Source of the DNA: Pseudomonadota bacterium
GTDB lineage: Bacteria > Desulfobacterota > Binatia > Binatales > Binataceae
Direction of reading: 5' to 3'
Assembly (NCBI GenBank): GCA_021324885.1
Contig: JAJPIF010000004.1
Location: 186,001 to 250,000, forward strand
Length of the DNA stretch: 64,000 nt
Shown here: piece by piece, positions 7,698 to 41,680 of the stretch
Numbering within the stretch: position 1 is the first letter of the stretch
How the letters are laid out: the number at the start of each line of letters is the position of its first letter
The notes under the pieces: model-generated
Told to the model about the DNA's origin: nothing
The model's database searches: none
The model's input: the letters and a program-made list of their open reading frames with translations, nothing else
Position numbers and translations under genes: made by a program

Positions 7698-9794
7698 TTA
7701 GACATTAATCAAAAGGTTGCCGAAACGATCAACCTCGGCGCTCTGATGCGGACGTACCGGCACCGTGGTGTGCGGCAGCTCGATAATCGCGGGGCCGGAA
7801 ATGCGATGGCCCGCGCGGATGATGGCGCCGTCGAAAATCGGCGTGTCGGCGTAGTGCTCCATCTCCCACCAATATACCGGGCGGCGGCTCTTTATCTTGG
7901 GTCTGGTTTTGCGCCTGGGCGGCGAGCTTTGCGCAAGTTCGATCTGCGGCAGAACTCCGAGAGCCTTCAATCGCAGCCGCAGTACCTCGACACCCGCCTC
8001 GCGATAACCGGCCCCTTCGCCGTAGCGCTGCGTGTACAGGGTCTGGAAATCGTCGATCAGGCGCTCCGCGTCGGCAGCCGTCAAAGTTCCATTGGGGACC
8101 GTAATTTCCAGATGGGAGACCTGCGCGCAGTACTTAATCGCGATAGACCGCTCCAGGATGATGCTGGACGCGTCGAAACCCAGCTCCCGCATGCGATGCT
8201 CGGCCTGCCGATCCATTTCAGCATAAACGGCGTTGAGCGCGGCTACATCCAGTGGTTCGCGCAGATAAAGGTTGCGCTCGTATAGATGGACCATCCCGCC
8301 GACATAGGTGCCCAGAGCGGACCATGCCGCGGCGGCATTGCCCAGCGGGACCGCGACTTTCCTGACACCCAGCTCGCGCGCATACATCGCGGCATGAGTG
8401 GGACCGCCGCCGCCGAACGCAAAGACCACGAAGTCGCGCGGATCGTAGCCGCGAAACAGCGTCAGGCGGCGAATCTCACCGGCCATCCGCGAATCAACGA
8501 TGCGGCAGATGCCCGCCGCGGTGTTCTCCAGGCTCAGCCCCAGCGCATCCGCCAGACGCGCGATTCCGCGCCGCGCCGCCGCGACATCGAGCCGTCTCTG
8601 TCCACCCAGAAAATAGTCCGGGTTGATGATCCCCAGTACGACGTTGGCATCGGTGACGGTCGGCTCCTCTCCGCCCTTGCCGTAGCACATCGGCCCGGGT
8701 TCGGCACCGGCGCTGCGCGGTCCGACCTTCATCGTGTTGCTGGCCGGATCGATGTAGGCAATACTGCCGCCGCCCGCGCCGATCGACACGACATCGATCA
8801 TCGGCAAACGCATCTCGAAGCGGTCCAGCACAGTTTCATTGCGGGTCATCGGCACGCCCTTGTAAACGATGCCGACATCGAAGGTCGTGCCGCCCATATC
8901 GGTCGTAATGATGTTGTCGTAGCCCATCTTGGGTCCGAGCACGCTGGAGCCCTGCACGCCGCTGACCGGACCGGAATCGATTGTGTAAAGCGGCGCCGCC
9001 GCCACTTCGTCCGGCGGCACGCATCCGCCCACACATCGCGCGAACATCACTTCGGAACCGAGACCGGCCTCGCGCGCGCGTTGGTTGATTCCCTGGATGT
9101 AGCGCCCCATCAGCGGGCCGACATAGGCATTGAACAAGGTCGCGACCGTACGACCGTGCTCGCCCAGAAAGGGAGCGACTTCGCACGAGCAACTGATGAA
9201 CAGATGTGGGGCAATCGAAGCGGCCAGCCGCTTGAGTGCCCTTTCGTGATCGGGATTTTGAAACGACCACAGCAGGCAAATCGCCAGCGCTTCGATTCCT
9301 TTCGCCACCAGGCGCTCGATCGCCTCTCGCGCCTGCTCCTGGTCCAGCCGCACCACCACCTCGCCCTTGCAGTCGATGCGTTCCGTAATCTCCTCGATAA
9401 ACTCCCGCGCGACCAGCGGACGCGGTTTTTCCGATCCCGCCATGTACAGCAATTCGTCCACGCCCAGGCCCTTGGAGCGGCCGCTGCCGTTCATGATGAA
9501 AATTGATTGGCCATGACCCGCCGTCGTCAGCAACCCGAGTTTGGCGCCGCGTTTGGTGACGATTGCATTGGTTGCGGTGGTGGTCGCATTGACCAGGATT
9601 CGCGTCTGGCTCAGGAAGTTGCGCGAATCCAGCCCCAGTGCCGACGCGGCGTTTTCGAGCGCATCGAAAAACCCCTGGGCGGGATTGGACGGGGTGGTCG
9701 GCGCCTTCGCCGTCGTAAACGATCCCTTGCTGGAATCGAAAACGGCGCAATCGGTGAAGGTGCCGCCAATATCAACGCCGACGATATACTTCAT
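7698..9794 (-). CDS. HyuA/acetone-carboxylase-beta-like ATP-binding subunit
   Basis: A 698-residue ASKHA-fold protein. The phosphate-1 loop VDIGGTFTD lies at residues 6-14, the phosphate-2 loop TDMGGTTFDVG near 300, GAGGGSIA near 345 and the FGGGGP block near 470. These mark hydantoinase A / acetone carboxylase beta subunits, which phosphorylate the substrate or bicarbonate. ATG at 9794 has GAGAGG 10 nt upstream. It is directly followed by its HyuB partner (18 nt), and preceded by a small lipoprotein gene (19 nt), in a probable six-gene operon. The fused gamma module in the partner points to a carboxylase complex. Confidence 0.88.
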   Translation of the reverse strand: MKYIVGVDIGGTFTDCAVFDSSKGSFTTAKAPTTPSNPAQGFFDALENAASALGLDSRNFLSQTRILVNATTTATNAIVTKRGAKLGLLTTAGHGQSIFIMNGSGRSKGLGVDELLYMAGSEKPRPLVAREFIEEITERIDCKGEVVVRLDQEQAREAIERLVAKGIEALAICLLWSFQNPDHERALKRLAASIAPHLFISCSCEVAPFLGEHGRTVATLFNAYVGPLMGRYIQGINQRAREAGLGSEVMFARCVGGCVPPDEVAAAPLYTIDSGPVSGVQGSSVLGPKMGYDNIITTDMGGTTFDVGIVYKGVPMTRNETVLDRFEMRLPMIDVVSIGAGGGSIAYIDPASNTMKVGPRSAGAEPGPMCYGKGGEEPTVTDANVVLGIINPDYFLGGQRRLDVAAARRGIARLADALGLSLENTAAGICRIVDSRMAGEIRRLTLFRGYDPRDFVVFAFGGGGPTHAAMYARELGVRKVAVPLGNAAAAWSALGTYVGGMVHLYERNLYLREPLDVAALNAVYAEMDRQAEHRMRELGFDASSIILERSIAIKYCAQVSHLEITVPNGTLTAADAERLIDDFQTLYTQRYGEGAGYREAGVEVLRLRLKALGVLPQIELAQSSPPRRKTRPKIKSRRPVYWWEMEHYADTPIFDGAIIRAGHRISGPAIIELPHTTVPVRPHQSAEVDRFGNLLINV

Positions 9795-26327: not shown

Positions 26328-26343
26328 TGGCACGATCGATGCT
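26328..26343 (+). promoter_or_regulatory. putative sigma-54 promoter
   Basis: TGGCACGATCGATGCT has GG (26329-26330) and GC (26341-26342) separated by exactly 10 nt, as sigma-54 -24/-12 promoters require (consensus TGGCACG-N4-TTGCW, one mismatch in the -12 box). Transcription would start near 26354, about 30 nt before the ATG at 26386. It is non-coding sequence upstream of a gene 1.4 kb from a sigma-54 activator gene. Confidence 0.6.
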
Positions 26344-26385: not shown

Positions 26386-26889
26386 ATGGATGAGCAGCCG
26401 GTATTACCAAACAACGCATTAATGACTCAGGACGCATCCTTTCGAGACAGCGGCACGATCAGCCTGTTTAAGAGACGTCGTTTGAATGGCTATATCTCGC
26501 TGGCCGACATCCTGGAACCGGAATTTCTGCTGCCGGCCCAGTACAACGACCTGATACGCAGGCACGTTGCCAGAGACGGCGAACGGCGGCTTCTGTTAGC
26601 GGTTTTGAAGGACGCGCTGCGTTGTTATCTGAAGACCATGAACGACACCAATGCTCGCGCCTACCGGATCTTCGAGGAAACCGCCCACTGGTTTTATGCC
26701 AAACATCAGGTAGGAATCTTCGCCTTCGAGCAGCTGTGCGACGCTTTGGGAATCGATCCTGAGCCGCTGCGGGAATGGCTTAAATCTCTGCATCATAACG
26801 AAGGCGGCATCGCCCGCGACCCCATCCACGGCCTCCGCAACGGCCGGCGTGCGCGCGAATTCATGAAAACCAGGATGGTGCTTGCCTGA
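26386..26889 (+). CDS. conserved-looking hypothetical protein
   Basis: A 167-residue soluble protein without signal peptide or membrane segment. It is helix-rich, with charged stretches (RRRLNG, RRHVARDGERRLL) and a segment FEETAHWFYAKHQVGIFAFEQLCDALGI that may form a small helical bundle. I do not recognise a family. A well-formed -24/-12 promoter precedes it, and the DUF882 and sigma-54 activator genes follow in the same direction, so a stress- or envelope-linked role under sigma-54 is the best contextual guess. Confidence 0.75.
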   Translation: MDEQPVLPNNALMTQDASFRDSGTISLFKRRRLNGYISLADILEPEFLLPAQYNDLIRRHVARDGERRLLLAVLKDALRCYLKTMNDTNARAYRIFEETAHWFYAKHQVGIFAFEQLCDALGIDPEPLREWLKSLHHNEGGIARDPIHGLRNGRRAREFMKTRMVLA

Positions 26890-27738: not shown

Positions 27739-29304
27739 ATGTCCCAACCAGCCGAAGGCCGTTCCACCAAAGCCGATGATTTAACCGCTCCAGGCGAGGC
27801 GGCTGGGAGCATTCCCGCTGGCGCTCCAGCATATTTCCATCTGCTGTGGGATCATGAACTGGAGAGCCTCGCACCCATCCTCGATTCGATTCTGAGTCGC
27901 CGCGAGCAGGTTCTGGCACATTGGCATCGTCTGTATCTGCTCCATTTTGGCGATTCGCGCTCGCTCTCGGACCGGGAGTTCATGGAGATTTTCGGCGCCG
28001 ACCTGGCCGCTACAATCGGTGACCTGCGGGCCAAAGACGTCGACAAATTCACCTCCGATGTGCGCCGGATTGGCGAGGCCCTGGCGGAACGGCACGTACC
28101 GTTTCCCGAAATTGTGGTCTCAATGCATCTGTTCGAGGAAAGCGCCACGTCCGCTTTTCCCCATTTTCCTCCGCCCTTGCCCAAGGTTTTTCTGGCCTTC
28201 GACAAACTAAGTCACTGCCGGATGATTGTGTTGGCCGATGCCTATTTCCGGTCGACATCGGCGGTGGCCAACGCGCGCATCCGCGACCTCGAACGCGAGG
28301 CTGCGATGCTGCCGCGCCAGGCGCGCAGCCGCTTCCATGGTCTGGTCGGGGCGAATCCGGCGATGCGCCAGCTCTACGAGCGCATCGAAGCGGCGGCGCG
28401 GAGCCGAGGCACAATCCTGATTGTGGGCGAAAGCGGTACCGGCAAGGAACTGGTGGCCAGGGCGATTCATGAAGCCTCAGAGCAGTCGCGTGCTCCGTTC
28501 GTCGCGCTCAACTGCGCGGCGATCCCGCGCGAACTGATAGAAAGCGAGCTGTTCGGCTACAAGCGCGGCGCTTTCAGCGGCGCCAACGCCGAACATCTGG
28601 GGCTGTTTCGATCCGCCGAAGGCGGCACACTGTTTCTCGACGAGATCACCGAGATGGCTCCGGAAACTCAGACCAAGCTGTTGCGCGCATTGCAGGAGCG
28701 CTCGGTACGGCCGGTCGGCGCCAATCGCGAAATCCCTGTCGATGTCAGAGTCATCGCCACCACCAACCGAGACCCGGCCGAGGCCGCGCGCAGCGGCCAG
28801 CTGCGCCAGGATCTCTATTACCGGCTGCAGGCGAATGTTCTACGCATACCGGCGTTGCGGGAGCGATTGGATGACGTCCCGCTTCTGATTGAGCACTTTA
28901 TCAACGTGTTCAACGAGCGGCTGAAGCGGCCGATCCCGGTGGCCGGCATCGCGGAGGACGCGCTGGCGGCGATGCGCGCCTATCAATGGCCGGGTAATGT
29001 GCGTGAACTGTCCAACGCAATCGAAGGCGCTTTCACTTTTGGCCACGGTTCGCTGATCACACTGGCAGATCTGCCTTCACAAGTGGCGGATGCGTGCCGG
29101 CCGCGATCATTTTCGGGAACCAACAGCCCCGCAGCGGGTTCGCTCGAACCGGCCACGGGTGTACAAAGTTTTGCCGATGTCGAACGCGAACTCATCCGCC
29201 GCGCGCTCGAAAATACCGAAGGCAATAAGGTCCAGGCCGCCAAACTGCTGCGGATCTCGCGCAAAAAACTATACGCGAAAATCGAGAAGTACGGCTTGGG
29301 CTGA
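27739..29304 (+). CDS. sigma-54-dependent enhancer-binding protein
   Basis: A 521-residue transcription activator in three parts. Residues about 28-185 are an all-helical N-terminal sensor resembling RsbRD-type N-terminal domains (tentative). The AAA+ domain (about 200-430) has Walker A GESGTGKE from 230, the sigma-54 contact loop as GAFSGA at 277-282 (usual GAFTGA) and Walker [10 protein letters not shown]. The C-terminal Fis-type helix-turn-helix (about 478-518) reads [25 protein letters not shown]. There is no receiver domain, so the trigger is likely a ligand or partner. Four candidate -24/-12 promoters lie within 8 kb. Confidence 0.92.
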
Positions 29305-29429: not shown

Positions 29430-29879
29430 TTACGTCTCTTTGTCCTGCGGGACTTGCGCGCCCAACGCCAGGCACATGAAGGCGTCCAGAACATCGCTGC
29501 GGGTCAGGATTCCGACCACACGCTGGTGGTCGACAATCGGAATTGCACCAAAACGCTCGCGCCGCATAATCCTGACTGCATCCTCGACCGTGTCTTCGGG
29601 GCCCAGCGAGAACACCTTTTCCGTCATCACGGTCTCAACCGCCACTTTCTCCGGATCAAGCGCCGCCGGAATTTGACCGAGGTCAACCGCCGCCTGTTCC
29701 ATGGCCGAGGGCGAAGCATTGCGCAAATCCCGATCGGTGACGATTCCAATCAGAACGCCATCTCTGACCACCGGAAGCTGATTGATCCGACGACGTTCCA
29801 GCAGCATCCGGGCATGAGCTACGGAGTCCCGTGGTTTAACCGTTTGAACGGGAGAGTTCATCCAATCCTTGATTTTCAC
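29430..29879 (-). CDS. twin CBS-domain protein
   Basis: About 149 residues: two CBS motifs, KIKDWMNSPVQTVKP...QLPVVRDGVLIGIVTDRDL and VMTEKVFSLGPEDT...AIPIVDHQRVVGILTRSDV, forming one Bateman module that would bind adenine nucleotides. I chose GTG at 29879: AGGTGA lies just upstream and the protein then begins VKIKDWM, as most CBS proteins do. An ATG at 29909 is also in frame, but the sigma-54 promoter at 29913-29928 would start transcription near 29902, inside that version. It is divergent from the Usp-CBS operon. Confidence 0.85.
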   Translation of the reverse strand: MKIKDWMNSPVQTVKPRDSVAHARMLLERRRINQLPVVRDGVLIGIVTDRDLRNASPSAMEQAAVDLGQIPAALDPEKVAVETVMTEKVFSLGPEDTVEDAVRIMRRERFGAIPIVDHQRVVGILTRSDVLDAFMCLALGAQVPQDKET

Positions 29880-29912
29880 TTCGTCACCTGTACTTTTTCC
29901 GACGGCCATTTA

Positions 29913-29928
29913 AGCAAGAGTTCTGCCA
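29913..29928 (-). promoter_or_regulatory. putative sigma-54 promoter for the CBS gene
   Basis: Minus-strand TGGCAGAACTCTTGCT matches TGGCACG-N4-TTGCW closely: GG at 29927-29926, GC at 29915-29914, exactly 10 nt between. The TTGCT -12 box is perfect. Predicted start near 29902, giving a leader of about 20 nt before GTG 29879. Confidence 0.68.
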
Positions 29929-30174
29929 ACGTTCGCAGAAAACCAGTGCATCCGTTAGGGATGCTCTGGTGGGGTCGCGGAAATGGACCGCCAGCCCCAA
30001 TTGCACCGTTTGGATACAGCTCGGGCGCGCTTTGAGCTGGCGGATTCCATTTGGAAACAACCGCTGTCCGTCAGCAGAATGCAACCGGTCTGAGCGGTCG
30101 GCGGCCGTGAAAAAAATCTTTGATCTTCGCCTATTTTTTCCCGCCGGCAAAGCGCAACCAATGCCTCCGGGAAA

Positions 30175-30190
30175 TGGCACGGCAGTCGCT
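30175..30190 (+). promoter_or_regulatory. putative sigma-54 promoter for the Usp-CBS operon
   Basis: TGGCACGGCAGTCGCT has a perfect TGGCACG -24 box, 10-nt spacing between GG (30176-30177) and GC (30188-30189), and one mismatch in the -12 box. Predicted start near 30201, about 40 nt before the GTG at 30242 and its GGAGG. It faces the opposite way to the promoter at 29913-29928. Confidence 0.65.
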
Positions 30191-30241
30191 AAGCTAGGCG
30201 GTGTGTCGCCGACGGACAGCAAAGGCAAGGAGGCAAAACCC

Positions 30242-31060
30242 GTGTCCTTCCCGTTTCGTTCGATTCTCCTGCCGGTGGACTTTGATGACAGCGCAGGAAT
30301 TGCGCTGGATTTGGCGAAACGTATCGCCCGCTTCGGCGACGCCACGATCCATCTGATGCACGTAATGACCATTGTGTTGGTGCCAGGTGAGGCCGCCAGC
30401 GTCCTGGCCGTGCGCGAGGACGAAGTCAAAGCGGCGCTGGACAAGATTGCTCGTGAACAGCTCAGCGGCACGCGCTATCAGATCCATTTGCGTACCGGTG
30501 ACACCGCGCGGGCGGTGGTCGAAGCGGCGCACGATCTGGCCGCCGACCTGATCGTAATGCCGACACATGGCCGCCGCGGCCTGTCCCGATTCTTTCTGGG
30601 CAGCGTCGCCGAACGCGTTGTCCGGGAAGCCCCCTGTCCCGTCCTGACTGTGCGCCCCTTAACGGCTCACAATGCAAGCCGGTCTGTTGGCGAGGTAATG
30701 ATCAGGAATCCGCCTTCGGTTAGCCCCACTGACACCTTGGCGCAGGCTCAGGCGGTTATGCAGCGCGAAGATCTGCGGTCTGTTCCCGTGGTCGCCAATG
30801 GCGTTTTGGTTGGAATAATTACCGACCGTGATATCCGCGCTCATCTTGGTTCGCTCGAACAGACGCGGGTGGATCAGGCAATGTCGCCGGGGCCGGTCAC
30901 GGTGGCGTCCACGATGGCGGTTGAAGAAGCGGCGCGATTGCTGGTGAAGCTGGGAGTCGGCACGCTGCCGGTCGTGGATAATGGCCAACTGGTGGGCCTC
31001 CTCACCACCCGCGAGGTGATCACCAGCCTGCTTGACCGCGGTGTGGCGTCAACCGATTAA
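30242..31060 (+). CDS. universal stress protein fused to twin CBS domains
   Basis: A 272-residue fusion. Residues about 1-145 are a UspA domain (SILLPVDFDDSA at the start; the ATP-binding motif GRRGLSRFFLGSVAERVVREAPCPVL, i.e. G-x2-G-x9-G-S/T, near 115). Residues about 155-270 hold two CBS motifs (VGEVMIRNPPSV, VDQAMSPGPVTV). Both halves bind adenine nucleotides, so the protein could sense energy charge. The frame is open 91 codons further upstream, but GGAGG 8 nt before GTG 30242 and the internal sigma-54 promoter fix the start here. First gene of a three-gene operon. Confidence 0.88.
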   Translation: MSFPFRSILLPVDFDDSAGIALDLAKRIARFGDATIHLMHVMTIVLVPGEAASVLAVREDEVKAALDKIAREQLSGTRYQIHLRTGDTARAVVEAAHDLAADLIVMPTHGRRGLSRFFLGSVAERVVREAPCPVLTVRPLTAHNASRSVGEVMIRNPPSVSPTDTLAQAQAVMQREDLRSVPVVANGVLVGIITDRDIRAHLGSLEQTRVDQAMSPGPVTVASTMAVEEAARLLVKLGVGTLPVVDNGQLVGLLTTREVITSLLDRGVASTD

Positions 31061-31089
31061 CCGGCCGCATAAGCTGCTAAGGAGCTCTG

Positions 31090-32685
31090 ATGGCACCAGA
31101 GGACTTGATTGACGCGATGAGCGATCCGGGTTTTTACCCCCATCGGCCGGCGCGCGTCGAGTTCAGGCAGACACACATTTCCCGCGTCTTTGTGGCCGGC
31201 GACTTCGTCTACAAGACCAAGAAGCCCCTGCGGCTCGCATTCCTGGATTACTCGACGCTGGAGCGGCGCTATCACTTTTGCCAGGAAGAGGTGCGGCTCA
31301 ATCAGCGGCTCGCGCCGCGGGTTTACCTCGGCGTCTTCGCGATTATGAAAAATGGCGCCGGGTTTTCGATCGGCACTAAACCGGCGCAGCGGTTCGATCC
31401 TCAGGCGGTCGAGTATGCGGTTAAAATGCGCCGTCTGCCGGACGATCGCAACCTCGAGCGCCTGGTAGCCGGCGGTCAGGCCGACGCTGCGCAGATGCGG
31501 CGGATTGCGTTCGTGCTGGCCAATTTTCATATCCTCGCGGCGCGCGAACGGTCCATGCGCTACGGCTCCGCCGACGCAATCAGGCGCAGCGTCGCAACCA
31601 ACCTGGAAGAATGCCGCCCGTTTGTCGGCGAGAGTATCAACGCGGCGCGCTTTGCCTTCCTGAGGGATTTCGCCGACGCCTTCGTGACCAAACATCGCGA
31701 CCTGCTCGACCGGCGCGCCCGCGAAGGATGGGTGCGCGATGGACACGGCGACCTGCGCAGCGAGCACGTCTGCATCGCTGATGGAATCGAAATCATCGAC
31801 TGCGTCGAGTTCAGCGAGGAGCTGCGCTATGCCGACATCGCCTCGGATGTCGGCTTCCTCCTGATGGATCTGGACCGGCTGCGCGCGCCGGCCTTGGGGC
31901 ATGCTCTGCTGCGCGCCTACGTGGCCGAAATCGGTGACCCGGATTTCAGCCGCCTGCTCAACTTCTACAAATGCTATCGGGCGGCGGTGCGCGCCAAGGT
32001 CGCCAGCCTCAAGGCGATCGAAAACGAGGTCGATGTGGCGCAGCGCAGCAAGGCCCGCCAATCAGCGCATGACTACTTCGAAGCCGCATATCATTACGCC
32101 GCGGTTGGCTCACCCGCGGTGATTGTAGTCTGTGGCCTGCCCGGAACCGGCAAATCCACCCTGGCTCAGACGCTCTCCGAGCGCATCGGCTTGGAGGTCC
32201 TCAATTCCGACGCGGTGCGCAAAAACCTGGCGGGTATCCCTCCGGTCGAGCGTGCCGGCGGCGGCTGGGCCGAGGGCATTTACAGCCAGGAATTCAGCCG
32301 CGCGACTTACCAGGCGCTGGCCGATGCCGCCGGAGCAAGGCTGCGCGGCGGCGACGGGATCATAGTAGATGCCACCTACAGAGATTTTGCCGAACGTGTC
32401 CGCTTGCGTGAGATCGCACTGCAGGCCGGAGTTCCGATCGTGTTTGCCGAATGCGTGATTGCGGACGATGAAGCCCGCCGCCGTCTGGAGATGCGATCAC
32501 AGCGGCCCGACACCATCTCAGATGCCACCTGGGACACCTATTTGCGGCAAAAGGCGTCCTTTGCGCCTTTTGGCCGCGAATTCGACGGTTGTCATCTGCG
32601 CCTCGACGGGACCCGGGAAGCCGCTTGCAACGCTCTGGAAATCGAGAAGTTTATCGCCGCTCACGGCAGCGTCGTACGAGCGTGA
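31090..32685 (+). CDS. APH-like kinase fused to P-loop nucleotide kinase
   Basis: A 531-residue two-domain protein. The N-terminal half (about 1-330) is aminoglycoside-phosphotransferase/COG2187-like, with catalytic-loop HGDLRSEHVCI near 219 and a following D. The C-terminal part has a Walker A GLPGTGKST starting at 349 and a gluconate/zeta-kinase-like layout (COG0645). The same two-domain architecture is found in mycobacterial Rv2004c of the DosR dormancy regulon; its substrate is unknown. AAGGAG lies 6 nt before ATG 31090, and it is 29 nt downstream of the Usp-CBS gene. Confidence 0.88.
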   Translation: MAPEDLIDAMSDPGFYPHRPARVEFRQTHISRVFVAGDFVYKTKKPLRLAFLDYSTLERRYHFCQEEVRLNQRLAPRVYLGVFAIMKNGAGFSIGTKPAQRFDPQAVEYAVKMRRLPDDRNLERLVAGGQADAAQMRRIAFVLANFHILAARERSMRYGSADAIRRSVATNLEECRPFVGESINAARFAFLRDFADAFVTKHRDLLDRRAREGWVRDGHGDLRSEHVCIADGIEIIDCVEFSEELRYADIASDVGFLLMDLDRLRAPALGHALLRAYVAEIGDPDFSRLLNFYKCYRAAVRAKVASLKAIENEVDVAQRSKARQSAHDYFEAAYHYAAVGSPAVIVVCGLPGTGKSTLAQTLSERIGLEVLNSDAVRKNLAGIPPVERAGGGWAEGIYSQEFSRATYQALADAAGARLRGGDGIIVDATYRDFAERVRLREIALQAGVPIVFAECVIADDEARRRLEMRSQRPDTISDATWDTYLRQKASFAPFGREFDGCHLRLDGTREAACNALEIEKFIAAHGSVVRA

Positions 32686-32692
32686 AGCTCAA

Positions 32693-35413
32693 ATGCAATC
32701 CACCCCGATCAAAGAATTGCGCAACTACACGGCCAGAGGAATTTTGACCGACGGCAGTTCGATCCTGATTCGTGCCCTCTCACCCGAGGACCGCCAACGG
32801 CTGCGCGAGCATCTTTCGCGCCTGAGCCCCGAGTCCGCCTACTTCCGCTTCATGACCGCGAAAAAAAGCTGGACCGACGCGGACCTCGATCGCTTCACCG
32901 ACCTGGATTACTTCCATCGATTCGGTCTGGTCGTCACCCGCCGCTATCAGGACGAGCAACGGATAATCGGCGTCGGGATCTATGCCGCCGATCCGCAAAA
33001 TCAGAAGCCCGAAAGCGCCGAAGTCGCCTTTAGCGTTGAGGACGAATACCAGGGGCGCGGTGTCGGTACCCTGCTGCTCGAACATTTGTGCCGTATCGCG
33101 CACGTCAACGGCATCAACCGGCTCGAAGCTGAAGTGATGGCCAACAACGCGCGGATGCTGGACGTTTTCGCGCGCAGCGGGTTCAACATCAGCCGTTCGA
33201 TCGAAGGCGGCGTGGTCAAGGTTTGGTTCGCCAACGAGGAAACCGAACAGTTCCTTAACCAGAGCCTGCGGCGTGAACGGCTGGCAGCCGCGCAGAGCAT
33301 CTCGCGCCTGCTCAATCCGCGTTCGGTCGCGGTGATCGGCGCTTCGCGCGATACGGGCAAAATCGGCGGCGCGATTGTGGCGAACCTGATTGCGGCCGGC
33401 TTCAGCGGTCCGATCTATCCCATCAATCCGCTCGCCGGCGAAGTGCTGGGGCTCAAGGCCTATCCGAGTCTGAGCGCCGTCGGCGCGCCGGTCGATCTCG
33501 GGGTGATTTGCATTCCCACCGCGATGGTCGAAAACGCGATTAAGGAATGCGCTGCGGCGGGAGTTCACGGCGTCGTGGTGATCACCGCGGGCTTTTCGGA
33601 AGTGGCGGGCGGGCGCGAGGCGCAGGATCGCATCACCAACCTGGTGCGATCGTGCGGGATGCGAATGGTCGGGCCCAATTGTATGGGGATTATCAACACC
33701 GATCCCGCCGTGAATCTCAACGCCACCTTCGCGCCGGTGATGCCGCGGCCGGGCAATATCGGGATGCTCTCGCAAAGCGGCGCGCTCGGAATTGCGGTGC
33801 TCGACGAGGCGCGCCTGCGCAACATCGGCCTGTCCAGTTTCGTTTCGGCCGGCAACAAGGCCGACGTCTCGGGCAACGATCTGATCTGCTACTGGGCGGA
33901 TGACCCGCGCACCAGGGCGATCGTCCTTTACCTGGAAAGCTTCGGCAATCCGCGCAAATTCGCGCGGCTGGCTCCGGCGGTGGCGCGTCAGAAGCCAATC
34001 GTGGCGGTGAAGTCGGGACGCTCGGCTGCGGGACGGCGCGCCGCGACGAGTCATTCGGCGGCGCTGGCCAATCTCGATGTGGCCGTCGAAGCATTGTTCG
34101 AGCAAACCGGCGTAATCCGGACCAATACCCTGGAAGAACTGTTCGATGTAGTCTCGCTGCTTTCGATGCAGCCGCTGCCCGCTGGACCGCGCGTGGGGGT
34201 GATTACCAATGCCGGGGGTCCGGGAATCCTGCTGGCCGACGCCTGCGAAGCCAGGGGCCTGCAACTGCCCGAACTGGACCAGGCCACGATCGCCCAATTG
34301 CGTTCATTCCTCCTCCCACGCAGCGGTTTTTCCAATCCGGTTGATATGACCGCCCAGGCCGGCGGTGAGGATTTCGCGCGGACCATCGCGGTAGTCGGGA
34401 ACGATAAGAACATCGATGCAGTCGTCGCAATCTACATTCCCCCGATGGTCACACAGCCGGTGGAAATCGCTCGCGGCATTGCCAGCGGAGCAGCGCAAGT
34501 GCCCGCGCACAAGCCGGTGGCCTGCGCCTTCATGTCTTCGGAGCAGGCACCCGAGGAAATCAACGCCGGGGCGCGCGGCGCCATACCCTGCTACAAATTT
34601 CCTGAAAACGTCGCGCTCGCGCTGGATGCGGCCAACCGTTATCGCCAATGGCGAAGCCGTCCAACGGGCGCCATCATGACCCTGGACAAAGCGGCTGAAA
34701 GTACAATCCGCGCCGTTGTGGATCGGGCGATCGCCGAAGCTGATGGGCCAGCGTGGCTCAAGCCCGGCGAAATCGCATCCATTCTCAAAGCCGCCGGCAT
34801 CCAAATGGTAACCGGCGAGCAGACCGACCTCGAACAAGCGCCCGCCGTGGCCGATCGAATCGGCTATCCGCTGGTCGCAAAGATCGTATCGCCCGATGTC
34901 CTCCACAAAAGCGACGTGGGCGGCGTCATCATGGGCTTGCGCTCGGCCGCCGAAGTGCGCGCCGCGACGATCCAGCTCAAACGCCGGATGGACGAACTAG
35001 GCAAACGACTGGACGGTGTTTTGCTGCAACCTGAAGTCCATGGTGGAATCGAAGCTCTGGTGGGCGTCACCACCGACCCAACCTTCGGCCCGCTCATAGT
35101 CTGCGGTCTGGGCGGCGTCATGGTCGAGTTGGTCAAGGATGTCGTCTTCCGGCTCCATCCAGTGACCGATGTTGACGCGGCGGAGATGGTCGCGGCGCTG
35201 CGCTCGAGTCCCCTGCTGGACGGCTATCGCGGCGCACCTCCCGGCGATCGACCGGCACTGATTTCGGTCATCCGCACAATCTCAGCCCTGGTTGAATTGG
35301 TACCGGAAATCACCGAACTCGACCTCAATCCGGTAAAGGTGCTGGCGCCGGGACAGGGTGCCATCGTAATCGATGCCCGTATGCGCATCGCACCCGGGCA
35401 TAGACTATCCTGA
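32693..35413 (+). CDS. GNAT-ADP-forming acyl-CoA synthetase fusion (Pat-type protein acyltransferase)
   Basis: A 906-residue fusion. The GNAT domain is N-terminal (about 15-180) with the acetyl-CoA loop YQGRGVGTLL. Next are the NDP-forming acyl-CoA synthetase domains: CoA-binding SVAVIGASRDTGKIGG near 215, the phospho-His segment TSHSAAL (His454), and a C-terminal ATP-grasp (about 690-900). With GNAT first it is the reverse of E. coli PatZ and matches the order reported for some actinobacterial Pat proteins. Such enzymes acetylate metabolic enzymes, often acetyl-CoA synthetase. ATG at 32693, 7 nt after the kinase stop; the frame extends further upstream inside that gene. Confidence 0.9.
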   Translation: MQSTPIKELRNYTARGILTDGSSILIRALSPEDRQRLREHLSRLSPESAYFRFMTAKKSWTDADLDRFTDLDYFHRFGLVVTRRYQDEQRIIGVGIYAADPQNQKPESAEVAFSVEDEYQGRGVGTLLLEHLCRIAHVNGINRLEAEVMANNARMLDVFARSGFNISRSIEGGVVKVWFANEETEQFLNQSLRRERLAAAQSISRLLNPRSVAVIGASRDTGKIGGAIVANLIAAGFSGPIYPINPLAGEVLGLKAYPSLSAVGAPVDLGVICIPTAMVENAIKECAAAGVHGVVVITAGFSEVAGGREAQDRITNLVRSCGMRMVGPNCMGIINTDPAVNLNATFAPVMPRPGNIGMLSQSGALGIAVLDEARLRNIGLSSFVSAGNKADVSGNDLICYWADDPRTRAIVLYLESFGNPRKFARLAPAVARQKPIVAVKSGRSAAGRRAATSHSAALANLDVAVEALFEQTGVIRTNTLEELFDVVSLLSMQPLPAGPRVGVITNAGGPGILLADACEARGLQLPELDQATIAQLRSFLLPRSGFSNPVDMTAQAGGEDFARTIAVVGNDKNIDAVVAIYIPPMVTQPVEIARGIASGAAQVPAHKPVACAFMSSEQAPEEINAGARGAIPCYKFPENVALALDAANRYRQWRSRPTGAIMTLDKAAESTIRAVVDRAIAEADGPAWLKPGEIASILKAAGIQMVTGEQTDLEQAPAVADRIGYPLVAKIVSPDVLHKSDVGGVIMGLRSAAEVRAATIQLKRRMDELGKRLDGVLLQPEVHGGIEALVGVTTDPTFGPLIVCGLGGVMVELVKDVVFRLHPVTDVDAAEMVAALRSSPLLDGYRGAPPGDRPALISVIRTISALVELVPEITELDLNPVKVLAPGQGAIVIDARMRIAPGHRLS

Positions 35414-35546: not shown

Positions 35547-35562
35547 TGGCATGATTGATGCT
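35547..35562 (+). promoter_or_regulatory. putative sigma-54 promoter
   Basis: TGGCATGATTGATGCT has GG (35548-35549) and GC (35560-35561) with the required 10-nt spacing; the -24 box has one mismatch and the -12 box one (ATGCT, the same -12 variant as at 26328-26343). It lies in an AT-richer gap. Predicted start near 35573, about 20 nt before ATG 35595. Confidence 0.55.
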
Positions 35563-35594
35563 TCGTCGCAGATGTGTCGAATGATTGGAATTCA

Positions 35595-36011
35595 ATGGTG
35601 CCGGTTGTGAGTGCGTCGAATACGAGTCACCGCCAAAAGCGGCATCCCACTATGCTGGCGTTGAGTGACGATCACGAGCTTGTGGAACTATTGCTCAAGA
35701 CCTGCAGCCGGCCATGGAAAGTGAAAGTGGCTGGTGATTTTACCTCCTACTTTAACCTGATACCGAACGGTGATTGCAGAGTAGTGGTCGTCGACGACGA
35801 GAAGCTGTTGGAAGCTGACCGCGGCTGGCTGCTGAACAAAATACAGAACTGGATGCCGCAGGCTTTCATTGTTTACATCGCATCGCAACATTCACCCGAA
35901 GTTGAGCGAACAGCTCGTTCCCGCGGCGCCGGCTACTATCTCTCCAAACCAGTGGACACCGAAAGACTCGCCCATCTGCTCAACGGCCTGCAACGGCTGA
36001 ACCTGACGTAG
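35595..36011 (+). CDS. receiver-like single-domain protein
   Basis: About 138 residues resembling a response-regulator receiver without output domain. MLALSDDHELVELLL fits strand 1 with the acidic pair, CRVVVVDDEKLLE holds the candidate phospho-Asp, FIVYIASQHS the conserved Ser/Thr region, and GAGYYLSKPVD the invariant Lys-Pro. The phospho-acceptor position is imperfectly aligned, so it may be a degenerate receiver. GTG at 35574 is in frame, but predicted sigma-54 transcription begins there, so ATG 35595 is preferred; ATG 35652 is another option. Confidence 0.7.
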   Translation: MVPVVSASNTSHRQKRHPTMLALSDDHELVELLLKTCSRPWKVKVAGDFTSYFNLIPNGDCRVVVVDDEKLLEADRGWLLNKIQNWMPQAFIVYIASQHSPEVERTARSRGAGYYLSKPVDTERLAHLLNGLQRLNLT

Positions 36012-38433: not shown

Positions 38434-38859
38434 GTGCTGCAGGAAACCCGGAAGATCGCGCGCGAGTGCCTCGCCTTTCGAATCCGGATGCTGAGCCGGA
38501 TCGTGACTGCCGCTTACGACGAGGCGGTTTCGAAGGCCGGATTGAAGATCAGCCAGTTCACGGTGCTAGTGGCGGTCAGCAACGCCGAAAAGTGCCGGCC
38601 CAGGGACCTCGCGCGATCGCTGGAAATGGACGAATCCACGCTCAGCCGCAATGTCGAGCGGATGTGCGCCAGGGGCTGGTTGAGGCTGGAACCGGATGAG
38701 GATCGGCGCGGCCACCTGATCACGATCACCGATAAAGGCAAAGCGACGATCCTCAAGGCCTATCCGCAATGGCAAAAAGCCCAGGAACAAATCGTCCGCC
38801 AACTCGGCGGAGAAGGTGTTGCCGCCGTCAGGTCGGCCCTCCGCAAGGTCCGCCAGTGA
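38434..38859 (+). CDS. MarR family transcriptional regulator
   Basis: A 141-residue winged-helix repressor: helix ECLAFRIRMLSRIVTAAYDEA, the recognition segment ARSLEMDESTLSRNVERMCARGWL and the wing PDEDRRGHLITITDKGKA are all typical. It probably senses a small lipophilic or phenolic ligand and represses the efflux operon starting at 38913. GTG at 38434 is taken as start; given the promoter at 38398-38426, this makes the mRNA almost leaderless. A TTG at 38416 is also in frame but lies upstream of the predicted transcript start. Confidence 0.88.
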   Translation: MLQETRKIARECLAFRIRMLSRIVTAAYDEAVSKAGLKISQFTVLVAVSNAEKCRPRDLARSLEMDESTLSRNVERMCARGWLRLEPDEDRRGHLITITDKGKATILKAYPQWQKAQEQIVRQLGGEGVAAVRSALRKVRQ

Positions 38860-38869
38860 CCCTTTTTTT
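38845..38869 (+). terminator. possible terminator at the end of marR
   Basis: AAGGTC (38845-38850) can pair with GACCCTT (38858-38864, one bulged C) around a 7-nt loop and is followed by seven T (38863-38869). It overlaps the marR stop codon. It would separate marR transcription from the efflux operon, which then needs the promoter at the second operator. Confidence 0.4.
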
Positions 38870-38878
38870 GTGCGAAGA

Positions 38879-38894
38879 TAGTTGTATATACAAC
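38879..38894 (+). promoter_or_regulatory. MarR operator 2 before the efflux operon
   Basis: GTTGTATATACAAC (38881-38894) is a perfect 14-bp palindrome containing a -10-like TATACA. With its TA flank it repeats operator 1 almost exactly (TAGTTGYATATACAA). It sits 18 nt before the EmrA-like start codon, so repressor binding would block the operon promoter. No good -35 box is visible. Confidence 0.65.
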
Positions 38895-38912
38895 GAGTGT
38901 CTTCGGTGCCAT

Positions 38913-40073
38913 ATGGACAATACTTTCGAAGTTTCCGAATTGCCGCGCCGCTCAGCGGCCAGCCCGCGGCTCCCTCATCCGGAGATCGCCGCCCACTCCG
39001 ATGACCAGGCTCAAGCGCTCGGTCACGACCCCATTGAGCATCGCGGCCTTGTCCAACCCGCCGGCGGTTCCCCACTTCGGCCTCAGCGTCGATGGTTCCG
39101 GCCAGTGGGCAGACGCGGTTTGCTGATCTCGGTGCTGGCGCTCGCGTTCGCCGCCGTTGCGCCGTTTGGATGGAACTATCTGCAATCCTACCAGAGCACC
39201 GATGATGCCCAGATCGACGGACATATCGATCCGATCAGCTCGCGCATCGACGGGACCGTGATCCACGTTTATGCCGAAGACGACGATCGCGTGCATCAGG
39301 GCGACCTGCTGGTCGAGATCGATCCGCGCGACTACCAAGTCGCAGCGCAGCGGGCCAGGGCGCGGCTCGAATTGGCGGCCGCCCAGGTGGCCGCGGCCCG
39401 CCAGGATTATGCCGCGCGCATTGCCAAAGTGCGTCAAGCGCGAGCCGTAAATTTCAGAGCTCAGCGCGACGCCCGCCGATACGCCGCGCTGCTCCAGGAC
39501 CAGGTGGTGCCGGCCGAGCAGTACGATCAATACACCGCCGCTGCCTGGGTTGACGCCGCGAAAGTGGATTCCGCGCGGGAAGCGGCGAAGTCGGCTGACA
39601 AGGAGATCGCCGCGCGCCAGGCCGACGCCGACGCGGCCCGGGCGGCGCTGGATCAGGCGCTGCTGAACCTGAGCTACACGAAAATATACGCACCGGCCGA
39701 CGGCATCGTCGGCAAAAGGTCGGTCCAGTTGGGATCGCGGATCGAACCCGGGCAGACGCTGATGTTCCTGACCGAAACCGACGAAATCTGGGTGACGGCG
39801 GATTTCAAGGAAACTCAACTGGCGTGCATGCGGCCTGGCCAGAGGGTCACGATCCACGTCGACACCTTCGCCCGCGACTACCGCGGCTATGTCAAGAACA
39901 TGCCCGGCGCCAGTGGCGATCGTTTCAGTCTTTTGCCTCCGGAAAACGCGACCGGCAATTACGTCAAGGTCGTCCAGCGGCTACCCGTGAGGATCATGTT
40001 CGAGCCGGGCCAGGATCCCGATCACCTGTTGCATCCCGGAATGTCGGTGGAACCAACCGTATGGCTGCGTTAG
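38913..40073 (+). CDS. EmrA/HlyD-type membrane fusion protein
   Basis: A 386-residue periplasmic adaptor. After a cytoplasmic start comes one membrane helix (LLISVLALAFAAVAPFGW, near 75), then the first barrel/lipoyl half STDDAQIDGHIDPISSRIDG, a long Ala/Arg/Gln coiled-coil hairpin (about 135-245), the second lipoyl half NLSYTKIYAPADGIVGKRSV and a beta-barrel. It would bridge an inner-membrane pump to an outer-membrane channel; no TolC-like gene is in the window. ATG 38913 is taken as start; the longer frame runs back into marR. Its end overlaps the next gene by 13 nt. Confidence 0.9.
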   Translation: MDNTFEVSELPRRSAASPRLPHPEIAAHSDDQAQALGHDPIEHRGLVQPAGGSPLRPQRRWFRPVGRRGLLISVLALAFAAVAPFGWNYLQSYQSTDDAQIDGHIDPISSRIDGTVIHVYAEDDDRVHQGDLLVEIDPRDYQVAAQRARARLELAAAQVAAARQDYAARIAKVRQARAVNFRAQRDARRYAALLQDQVVPAEQYDQYTAAAWVDAAKVDSAREAAKSADKEIAARQADADAARAALDQALLNLSYTKIYAPADGIVGKRSVQLGSRIEPGQTLMFLTETDEIWVTADFKETQLACMRPGQRVTIHVDTFARDYRGYVKNMPGASGDRFSLLPPENATGNYVKVVQRLPVRIMFEPGQDPDHLLHPGMSVEPTVWLR

Positions 40074-41680
40074 TCAGCTTGAGGGCCGCCGTGCCGCAGT
40101 CTGCGCCGGCTTCACGATCGCGCGGGCACAACGTCTGGGCAATCGCCCTGACGGTGACTTTGGCGACGTTCATGGAGCTGCTCGACACCAGCATCTCCAA
40201 TGTGTCTCTGCCCCATATCGCCGGTGGACTGGGCACCAGTTATGACGAAAGCACCTGGATCCTGACCAGTTACCTGGTCGCCAATGCGGTAGTCCTGCCG
40301 ATGAGTGCATGGCTCAGCCAGTTCTTTGGGCGCAAGCGCTACTACATGATGAGTGTGGCGCTGTTCACCGCGACTTCGTTGCTGTGCGGCGCCGCTCCGA
40401 ACCTTGCGATGCTGGTAATCTTCCGTGTATTGCAGGGAGCCGGCGGCGGCGGTCTGGCGCCGGTCGAACAGGCCATCCTGGTGGACACGTTTCCCAAAGA
40501 AAAGCTGGGCGGCGCCTTCGCCCTCTACAGTATGGCTATAGTCACGGCCCCCGCCATCGGTCCGCCGCTCGGCGGATGGATTACCGACAGCTTCTCCTGG
40601 CGCTGGGTTTTCTTCATCAACATTCCGATCGGCATCATATCCCTGATGCTTTCAAGCCAGCTCCTGCATGATCCTCCCGAATTCACGGCGGAGAGGAAAC
40701 GCGACCGGCGCGGCAGCCAGCTCCGGATCGACTACGCCGGGATTATCCTGATCGCGGTGGGTTTCGCCTGCCTGGAGGTGGTGCTGGATCGCGGCGAGCG
40801 CGACGACTGGCTGCGAAGCCAGTTCATCGCCACGTTCCTGGTAATCGCGGTGATCGCGATTGCGGCAGCGGTCTGGCGGGAATGGCATCATCACGATCCG
40901 GTGGTGGAACTGACGCTGCTGCGCGAACGCAATTTCGCGATCGCCAACGTGTACTACTTCCTGTTTGCGTTCGGCCTGTTCGGCAGCACCGTTTTGATTC
41001 CCGAGATGCTTCAGACGCTTTACGGCTACACCGCAACGGATGCGGGACTGGTGCTGGGTCCGGGCGCCGCCGTAATCACGATCCTAGCGCCCGTGGTGGT
41101 GCGGATCGTGCCGCGGATCGGCGCCAGACGCCTGCTTGCGGCCAGTTTCACAATTGCCGCCCTCTCGATGCTTTATTACAGCCGCCTCACTCCTGCGACT
41201 GACTATTTTCATTTCGCTCTGGCCCGCTGCTTCCAGGGATTCGGCTACGCATTCATGTTCGTTCCGGTAAGCCAGCTCGCCTATTCCTATCTGCCGAAGG
41301 ACAAAAACAATAAGGGATCAAGCCTTACCAATCTGTGCCGCAACTGGGGTGGGAGCTTCGGCATCGCATTCGTCACCACAATGCTGGAGCGGCGCAGCCA
41401 GTATCACCAAAGTGTACTGACAAGCCACATCAGCGCCGCCGACATCGGCGTGGGGCAGTTCGTACGTAGTTCGAGCCGCTACCTGCTCACTCGCGCAACC
41501 AGCGGCCCCGATGCGATCCATCAGGCGCACGGGCTGGTCAACCGCCTCATGACGCAGCAGGCATCGATGCTGGCCTTCATGGACTGTTTTCATCTGCTGA
41601 TGCTGGTCGTGATGCTCGGCCTGCCACTGGCCTTGCTGATCCGGCATTTCGACGCAGGCGGCGCGGGCGCGGCACACTGA
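40061..41680 (+). CDS. EmrB/QacA-type MFS drug:H+ antiporter, DHA2 family
   Basis: A 539-residue inner-membrane transporter with about 14 hydrophobic segments. FMELLDTSISNVSLPHIAGGLGTS in helix 1 is the DHA2 signature (motif D1), WLSQFFGRKRYY the motif A loop, and GPPLGGWITDSFSWRWVFFINIPIG motif C and the following helix. It would expel lipophilic or aromatic compounds using the proton gradient together with the EmrA-like adaptor upstream. ATG 40061 overlaps the adaptor gene by 13 nt, indicating translational coupling. Confidence 0.93.
   Translation: MAALVSLRAAVPQSAPASRSRGHNVWAIALTVTLATFMELLDTSISNVSLPHIAGGLGTSYDESTWILTSYLVANAVVLPMSAWLSQFFGRKRYYMMSVALFTATSLLCGAAPNLAMLVIFRVLQGAGGGGLAPVEQAILVDTFPKEKLGGAFALYSMAIVTAPAIGPPLGGWITDSFSWRWVFFINIPIGIISLMLSSQLLHDPPEFTAERKRDRRGSQLRIDYAGIILIAVGFACLEVVLDRGERDDWLRSQFIATFLVIAVIAIAAAVWREWHHHDPVVELTLLRERNFAIANVYYFLFAFGLFGSTVLIPEMLQTLYGYTATDAGLVLGPGAAVITILAPVVVRIVPRIGARRLLAASFTIAALSMLYYSRLTPATDYFHFALARCFQGFGYAFMFVPVSQLAYSYLPKDKNNKGSSLTNLCRNWGGSFGIAFVTTMLERRSQYHQSVLTSHISAADIGVGQFVRSSSRYLLTRATSGPDAIHQAHGLVNRLMTQQASMLAFMDCFHLLMLVVMLGLPLALLIRHFDAGGAGAAH

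Follow-up and report, generated by a model that had tools for sequence, protein, structure and literature searches.

A predicted sigma-54 regulon built around Usp, CBS, kinase and acyl-CoA synthetase genes in Binataceae, with a globin-like sensor domain on its likely activator

Introduction

Which regulator governs, and what circumstance calls for, a tightly packed set of genes encoding a CBS protein, a Usp-CBS fusion, an APH/P-loop kinase fusion and a GNAT-first acyl-CoA synthetase? The set lies in a 64,000-nucleotide stretch of DNA, the whole of which is here called the window (positions 186,001 to 250,000 of contig JAJPIF010000004.1, assembly GCA_021324885.1), in a metagenome-assembled genome (MAG) of the Binataceae (phylum Binatota; 30 contigs, 4.53 Mb). 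A sequence-only reading of this DNA had likened the set to mycobacterial DosR dormancy genes and suggested a low-energy or hypoxia module using sigma-54 in place of DosR. We consider it probable that the cluster is the core of a Binataceae sigma-54 regulon for stress or low-energy survival, governed by a neighbouring activator with a globin-like sensor. Gene content, conservation, promoters, operator and globin fold are computed results; direct binding, the signal and the functions of the products are what we infer.

A conserved gene module

Domain searches place the four genes where the sequence-only reading had put them, with the domains it had named. The two-CBS-domain protein (29430..29909, minus strand; CBS E 4.1e-32) is divergent from the Usp-CBS protein, which carries one Usp and two CBS domains (30242..31060, plus strand; Usp E 2.4e-32, CBS E 3.8e-28) and is followed on the same strand by the kinase fusion (31090..32685; APH E 2.5e-5, AAA_33 E 1.6e-27) and by the GNAT-first synthetase of ADP-forming type (GNAT-ACD; 32693..35413), with GNAT, CoA_binding_2, Succ_CoA_lig and ATP-grasp_5 domains. 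The kinase has an APH-like and then a P-loop kinase domain, the architecture of Rv2004c, a likeness of domains drawn without direct comparison with the Rv2004c sequence. GNAT-ACD likewise joins GNAT to NDP-forming acyl-CoA synthetase domains in the Pat-type arrangement, and its GNAT part scores 90.6 bits against the mycobacterial Pat model, far under the cut-off of 460. Two of the start sites first proposed had to be moved: that of Usp-CBS from 29969 to GTG 30242, probably the true start, with AAGGAGG at 30227-30233 and a sigma-54 site at 30175-30190 in front of it, and that of GNAT-ACD from TTG 32459 to a predicted ATG at 32693. With only 3 bp between its predicted promoter and ATG 29909, the CBS gene may begin instead at GTG 29879. 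The span first given to the set omits three genes, those of the activator (27739-29304), of a small receiver-like protein (35574-36011) and of an orphan (26386-26889).

Among 96 relatives, a kinase homologue was found in 70 and the N-terminal domain of the activator in 39, nearly all of the latter in a single family (f1). The kinase regions of 31 genomes of this family were compared, with gene calls forced by homology and with counts that are lower bounds, several contigs being short. In 22 of the 31, Usp-CBS immediately precedes the kinase; the activator lies within 10 kb of the kinase in 18 and a CBS protein within 8 kb in 12, while an ACD protein, at times its GNAT part alone, adjoins it in 11. 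The families thus do co-occur in other genomes, as a conserved module of the kind that had been supposed from a single locus. The closest relatives of the activator in a DNA search are MAGs labelled Binataceae, 'Deltaproteobacteria' and 'Proteobacteria', the best of them 82% identical. In four relatives an acetate kinase gene (identified by Pfam on one member) stands beside GNAT-ACD, a pointer to acetyl-CoA energy metabolism.

Two other arrangements were seen in kinase regions. In one genus a conserved block encoding cytochrome b, an Fe-S flavoprotein and a cytochrome c-like protein adjoins the module (L197:10532-17438, and likewise L198, L199 and L202). In L235 and L236, from another Binatota family, the kinase gene is preceded, at a distance of some 160-180 bp, by a different, sensor-less sigma-54 activator of 314 aa, a hint that sigma-54 has been recruited more than once.

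Predicted sigma-54 promoters

A sigma-54 -24/-12 site, TGGCACGGCAGTCGCT (30175..30190, plus strand), precedes Usp-CBS and is conserved before most of its orthologues: of 26 Usp-CBS upstreams examined, 21 carry a strong site (19 of 24 when contigs present twice are counted once), which precedes the aligned start by 27-60 bp. Such sites are mostly absent before the kinase and ACD genes, which are internal to the operon. Before the CBS gene lies a sigma-54-like site with two mismatches, TGGCAGAACTCTTGCT (29913..29928, minus strand), with a similar one in L069. RpoN is encoded in the window's genome, and taken together with the operator-promoter pairs described below, these sites uphold the sigma-54 control of the module that was first proposed from one locus. 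A wider scan of 66 regions gave 69 strong sites, 55 of them before called genes, among which Usp-CBS and the receiver-like gene recur; others found behind strong sites in relatives encode Hsp20, a chaperonin, a P-type ATPase, a DUF2267 protein, GAPDH and a phosphoribosyltransferase-hydrolase.

The pattern itself is common. The window holds 12 sites with at most two mismatches to the -24/-12 consensus, 12.5 being expected, four of which stand directly before cluster genes. Genome-wide, the pattern with at most one mismatch shows no enrichment (560 on forward and reverse strands vs 622 in a reversed control), and we have therefore trusted single sites only where they are conserved.

A predicted palindromic operator and its probable link to the activator

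Expectation maximization (EM) on 22 upstreams with sigma-54 sites masked, after removal of near duplicates of L198 (L199 and L202) and of duplicate contigs (L074 and L224), yielded the palindrome TGTnTCC-N3-GGAnACA with a log-likelihood of 133, vs 32-38 for four shuffled controls. The same palindrome emerged when a further 61 sigma-54 upstreams, those of Usp-CBS and the kinase excluded, were searched independently (124 vs 31-45 for six controls). Most instances precede the sigma-54 promoter by 50-115 bp, the farthest by about 160 bp. The best match in the window (16.8 bits), TGCACCGTTTGGATACA at 30002..30018, is the predicted operator, or upstream activating sequence, of the activator; it falls between the two divergent promoters, with the CBS site at a distance of 74 bp and the Usp-CBS site at 157 bp. 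A count of exact 5-mer dyads, tried as another operator finder, gave 5 regions vs a random maximum of 5, with no excess.

Operator-promoter pairs were counted with leave-one-region-out matrices in genomes with a fetched kinase region (G008, G018, G022, G033, G039 and G040 thus being absent). In sorting genomes by presence of the activator, weak partial matches in G040, G084 and G086 were scored as absence. The kinase regions of activator-bearing family genomes hold 42 pairs in 574 kb (22 of 34 regions), and those of activator-less genomes of other families none in 459 kb (0 of 31 regions). Shuffled sequences gave a mean of 0.1 pairs (maximum 1 in 20) and reversed sequence 1. Over whole genomes, operators with at most one mismatch number 191 vs 30 in reversed sequence in 33 activator-bearing family genomes and 14 vs 7 in the 8 family genomes without activator, a within-family difference with a Mann-Whitney p of 0.0017, relatedness not being removed; three activator-bearing genomes of other families have 22 vs 8.

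These results bear on the suspicion that common stress proteins adjoin one another here by accident and that the promoter matches are fortuitous. Genes for Usp and CBS proteins are indeed common, with 16 Usp matches in the window's genome, and the lack of genome-wide enrichment of the sigma-54 pattern would fit as well; yet gene order and promoters are conserved, the motif was found twice independently, far above shuffles, and the contrast in pair counts contradicts chance. We regard this explanation as highly improbable.

A globin-like sensor domain without a haem histidine

The activator gene (plus strand) encodes an AAA+ sigma-54 interaction domain (Sigma54_activat E 6.9e-68) with Walker A and B motifs and a GAFTGA-type loop, followed by a Fis-type helix-turn-helix (HTH_8). 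These features are those of a bacterial enhancer-binding protein (bEBP), as is the context of RpoN and of -24/-12 promoters with palindromic operators upstream. The N-terminal domain (27805..28311, plus strand; residues 23-191 of the activator) was modelled with AlphaFold from ten aligned sequences as all helical (mean pLDDT 89.6, pTM 0.80). The best Foldseek matches are globins, among them cytoglobin (E 6.9e-3) and the AfGcHK sensor globin (5ohe; E 7.2e-3, probability 1.00). VIA-align, with a match list almost wholly of globins, gives Z scores of 13-14, a level that helical folds can reach by chance, to cytoglobin, the N-domain of RsbR (2bnl_C; Z 13.4, rmsd 2.4 over 130), BpeGReg (4uiq; Z 13.4, rmsd 2.7, 140 aligned) and a sensor globin from Geobacter. 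Sequence profiles agree weakly: of 10 members, 3 match Pfam Protoglobin (lowest E 0.0061) and 4 match Arfaptin (lowest E 0.00041). The best PDB profile match, also weak (E 0.17), is the anti-anti-sigma factor 7o0i, presumably Vibrio RsbR, whose GEIH histidine aligns with Leu93 of the activator. The RsbR of V. brasiliensis keeps the proximal haem histidine and that of Bacillus does not, according to the available text of PMC4976288.

Position 93 is Leu in all 43 domain sequences compared, and among the F-helix columns checked, from residue 87 to residue 99, none has a conserved His. His97, considered as a haem ligand, was set aside, being His in just 8 of 43 domains. With Leu at the position aligned with the haem histidine, direct haem-O2 sensing is unlikely, and the domain is predicted, from its modelled fold, to be a haem-less sensor globin. 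Three other histidines (domain numbering) are conserved, His137 in 43, His108 in 39 and His47 in 40 of the 43 sequences. A literature search over titles and abstract openings returned no globin-fused enhancer-binding protein, its matches being Nmp papers and unrelated work; the available text of PMC9237128 contains no occurrence of haem.

Predicted targets elsewhere in the genome

The operator was sought in fetched stretches covering about 657 kb of the 4.53 Mb genome, plus the window. Fourteen strong operators were found, 10 intergenic and 4 intragenic, and a sigma-54-like site (score >=7) lies downstream of 8 of the 10 intergenic vs none of the 4 intragenic ones. Besides the CBS and Usp-CBS genes of the window, the predicted targets include another Usp gene (L188), a sulfide-quinone-reductase-like (SQR-like) flavoprotein (L290, with a relative in L076 arranged alike), a TolC-type protein whose gene precedes that of an RND pump (L290) and a HlyD-type protein (L293). 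An alternate-type F1F0-ATPase operon on contig 13 (L291:8602-15252), with beta, epsilon, a, b, alpha and gamma subunits recognized by NCBIfam, stands behind a pair of operators at 8546 and 8579 and a sigma-54-like site, and in a sister species (region L194) a cytochrome oxidase subunit II gene is under an operator. For a perfect palindrome in L296, no gene was called on the side to which its promoter-like site points.

Two readings of the signal meet here. Under the first, the regulon would be induced specifically by hypoxia, as are those of DosR, Anr/FixK or NmpR, with the activator measuring oxygen. The gene families match those of known hypoxia regulons, the operator is found before SQR-like and alternate ATPase operons here and before an oxidase subunit in the sister species, and in Myxococcus the sigma-54 activator NmpR drives hypoxia-induced CBS, Usp and cbb3 genes (PMC11841059, available text). 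The globin-like sensor, however, has no haem histidine, and gene sets of this kind respond to starvation or energy stress as well. We rate this version as no more than tentative. Somewhat better placed, though still a little short of an even chance in our judgement, is a general energy or envelope stress response in which the haem-less globin reads some other cue, be it a ligand, a metal, protons or a partner protein, as proposed for stressosome RsbR. The fold match to the RsbR N-domain (2bnl_C), the conserved His47, His108 and His137, and the RND efflux and HlyD genes behind operators all favour it; function does not follow from fold similarity, however, and the ligand is hypothetical.

Among the window's other genes, the orphan gene (plus strand; 167 aa) is without a Pfam or NCBIfam family and is a probable sigma-54 target, with a one-mismatch site, TGGCACGATCGATGCT (26328..26343, plus strand), and similar sites before its orthologues in L196 and L213; homologues occur in the kinase regions of L203, L211 and L213. 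The small receiver-like (REC-like) gene (plus strand; Response_reg E 3.9e-5, below the gathering score) is likewise a probable target, behind the sigma-54-like site TGGCATGATTGATGCT (35547..35562, plus strand), with sites before its response-regulator relatives in 7 further regions. At 38769-41680 lies an EmrAB-like efflux pair (a membrane fusion protein and an MFS transporter, by reading of the translations) adjoined by a MarR-like regulator, which looks ordinary. In relatives, luciferase-like monooxygenase genes with operator and sigma-54 site were noted in two families (L196:17991-19124 and L269:3609-4868).

Discussion

Several observations count against a regulon under this particular activator. 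No operator-promoter pair was found in 12 of the 34 activator-bearing regions, or in the kinase regions of three activator-bearing genomes of other families (L225, L227 and L228), two of which do have pairs beside the activator gene itself (L268 and L269). Conversely, two family regions from genomes without a detected activator contain three pairs, all of them in G031, and 52 activator-less genomes of other families hold 167 operators vs 82 reversed, a twofold excess that we take as compositional background. Because nearly all genomes with the activator belong to one family, phylogeny partly confounds the link between activator and operator. In the window, the CBS promoter is of the two-mismatch class expected about 12 times by chance, and no good operator match was found before the sigma-54 sites of the orphan and REC-like genes; relatives of the latter have both operator and promoter in L197, L201, L202, L266, L268 and L271. 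No Foldseek match of the sensor domain has an E value below 1e-3. Finally, the genome encodes three globin-bearing activators, any of which may be the one that binds the operator: besides that of the window, two more lie at contig 25:200820-201314 and contig 26:22916-23365, with N-domains 68% and 36% identical to that of the window.

This last point, with the pairs of G031, lends some substance to the idea that another enhancer-binding protein of this genome controls the window genes and that the neighbouring activator has other targets. Against it stand the 18 of 31 family genomes in which the activator adjoins the module, and the way operator numbers track activator presence within the family; we consider it unlikely. 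We therefore return to the cluster as the core of a regulon under the neighbouring activator, and ask how far it resembles systems already described.

In regulator type and operator the system is distinct from those known, the nearest being Myxococcus NmpR and mycobacterial DosR. NmpR, of the NmpRSTU system of M. xanthus, is also a sigma-54 activator of genes for a CBS protein, Usp and respiratory functions through paired palindromic operators (PMC11841059). NmpR is, however, a response regulator, controlled by phosphorylation, whose input comes from a haem protoglobin kinase, whereas here the activator itself carries the globin domain, which lacks the haem histidine; the NmpR operator is GCGCA-N5-TGCGC and not TGTnTCC-N3-GGAnACA; and the available text of the same source does not name an APH/P-loop kinase or GNAT-ACD among its targets. 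The NmpR-type operator, with one degenerate base on each side, was found at none of the listed sigma-54-like sites of activator-less regions. No Response_reg match was obtained in the activator, which has a globin fold in place of a receiver domain.

DosR is a response regulator of NarL type served by the kinases DosS and DosT, which sense through haem, whereas here sigma-54 and an enhancer-binding protein would do this work. Its regulon includes the CBS protein Rv2626c and Rv2004c, of the same two-domain kinase architecture. No match to the DosR box consensus was found in the window at up to three mismatches, with no genome-wide search for DosR, DosS or DosT made. The likeness to DosR drawn by the sequence-only reading survives as an analogy of gene families (Usp, CBS and APH/P-loop kinase), and not as membership of a DosR regulon. 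In relatives it extends to Hsp20, P-type cation ATPase and phosphoribosyltransferase families, which like Usp proteins are represented in the DosR regulon (PMC5309233, PMC11203133, available text).

The lxa locus of Burkholderia cenocepacia, taken here together with Anr/FixK regulons, has clustered Usp and alpha-crystallin genes induced at low oxygen and was compared with DosR by its authors, although CRP/FNR-type control, not sigma-54, is proposed there (PMC6127331, available text). The N-terminal globin fold is shared with the RsbR stressosome protein and is haem-less as in Bacillus RsbR (PMC4976288), whereas the output there is a STAS domain and here an AAA+ sigma-54 activator; no STAS domain was found in the activator, though its N-domain matches 2bnl. 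For Planctomycetes, an account whose available text makes no mention of Binatota names Usp and CBS among the targets of sigma-54 (PMC12316311).

The activator can be pictured as a one-component enhancer-binding protein in which the AAA+ module would take its input from the haem-less sensor globin, RsbR-like in kind, to which it is joined. Once signalled, it would bind TGTnTCC-N3-GGAnACA operators, contact sigma-54 RNA polymerase at -24/-12 and open promoters with ATP. In the window a single operator would serve two divergent promoters, one for CBS and the other for Usp-CBS, kinase and GNAT-ACD, and the same type of operator would drive the alternate F1F0-ATPase operon, the SQR-like flavoprotein and another Usp elsewhere in the genome. 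CBS and Usp proteins often bind adenine nucleotides (reviewed in PMC11841059), and from their families the products here may sense them; on the same footing, the kinase may phosphorylate targets, and GNAT-ACD may rework acetyl- or acyl-CoA metabolism or acetylate proteins. By analogy, low oxygen or low energy would be the likeliest setting, because the NmpR, lxa and DosR gene sets, of the same kind, answer low oxygen. A bolder proposal, whose chances we judge evenly balanced, sees in the activator a new class of one-component regulator, with a haem-less sensor globin acting directly on a sigma-54 AAA+ module, that independently captured DosR-like quiescence genes and a second ATP synthase; His47, His108 and His137 may form a ligand or metal site, in which case the protein would sense energy or redox state without haem.

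Sensor globins without haem, as debated in stressosomes, would here drive a simple transcriptional readout through an enhancer-binding protein. For these soil bacteria, the predicted operator leads to a concrete regulon in a phylum described as uncultured (PMC8262859, available text). The comparison as a whole suggests that the Usp, CBS and kinase set is a portable survival package, placed under different switches in different lineages: DosR, FNR-type regulators, NmpR and, in these Binataceae, a globin-fused sigma-54 activator.

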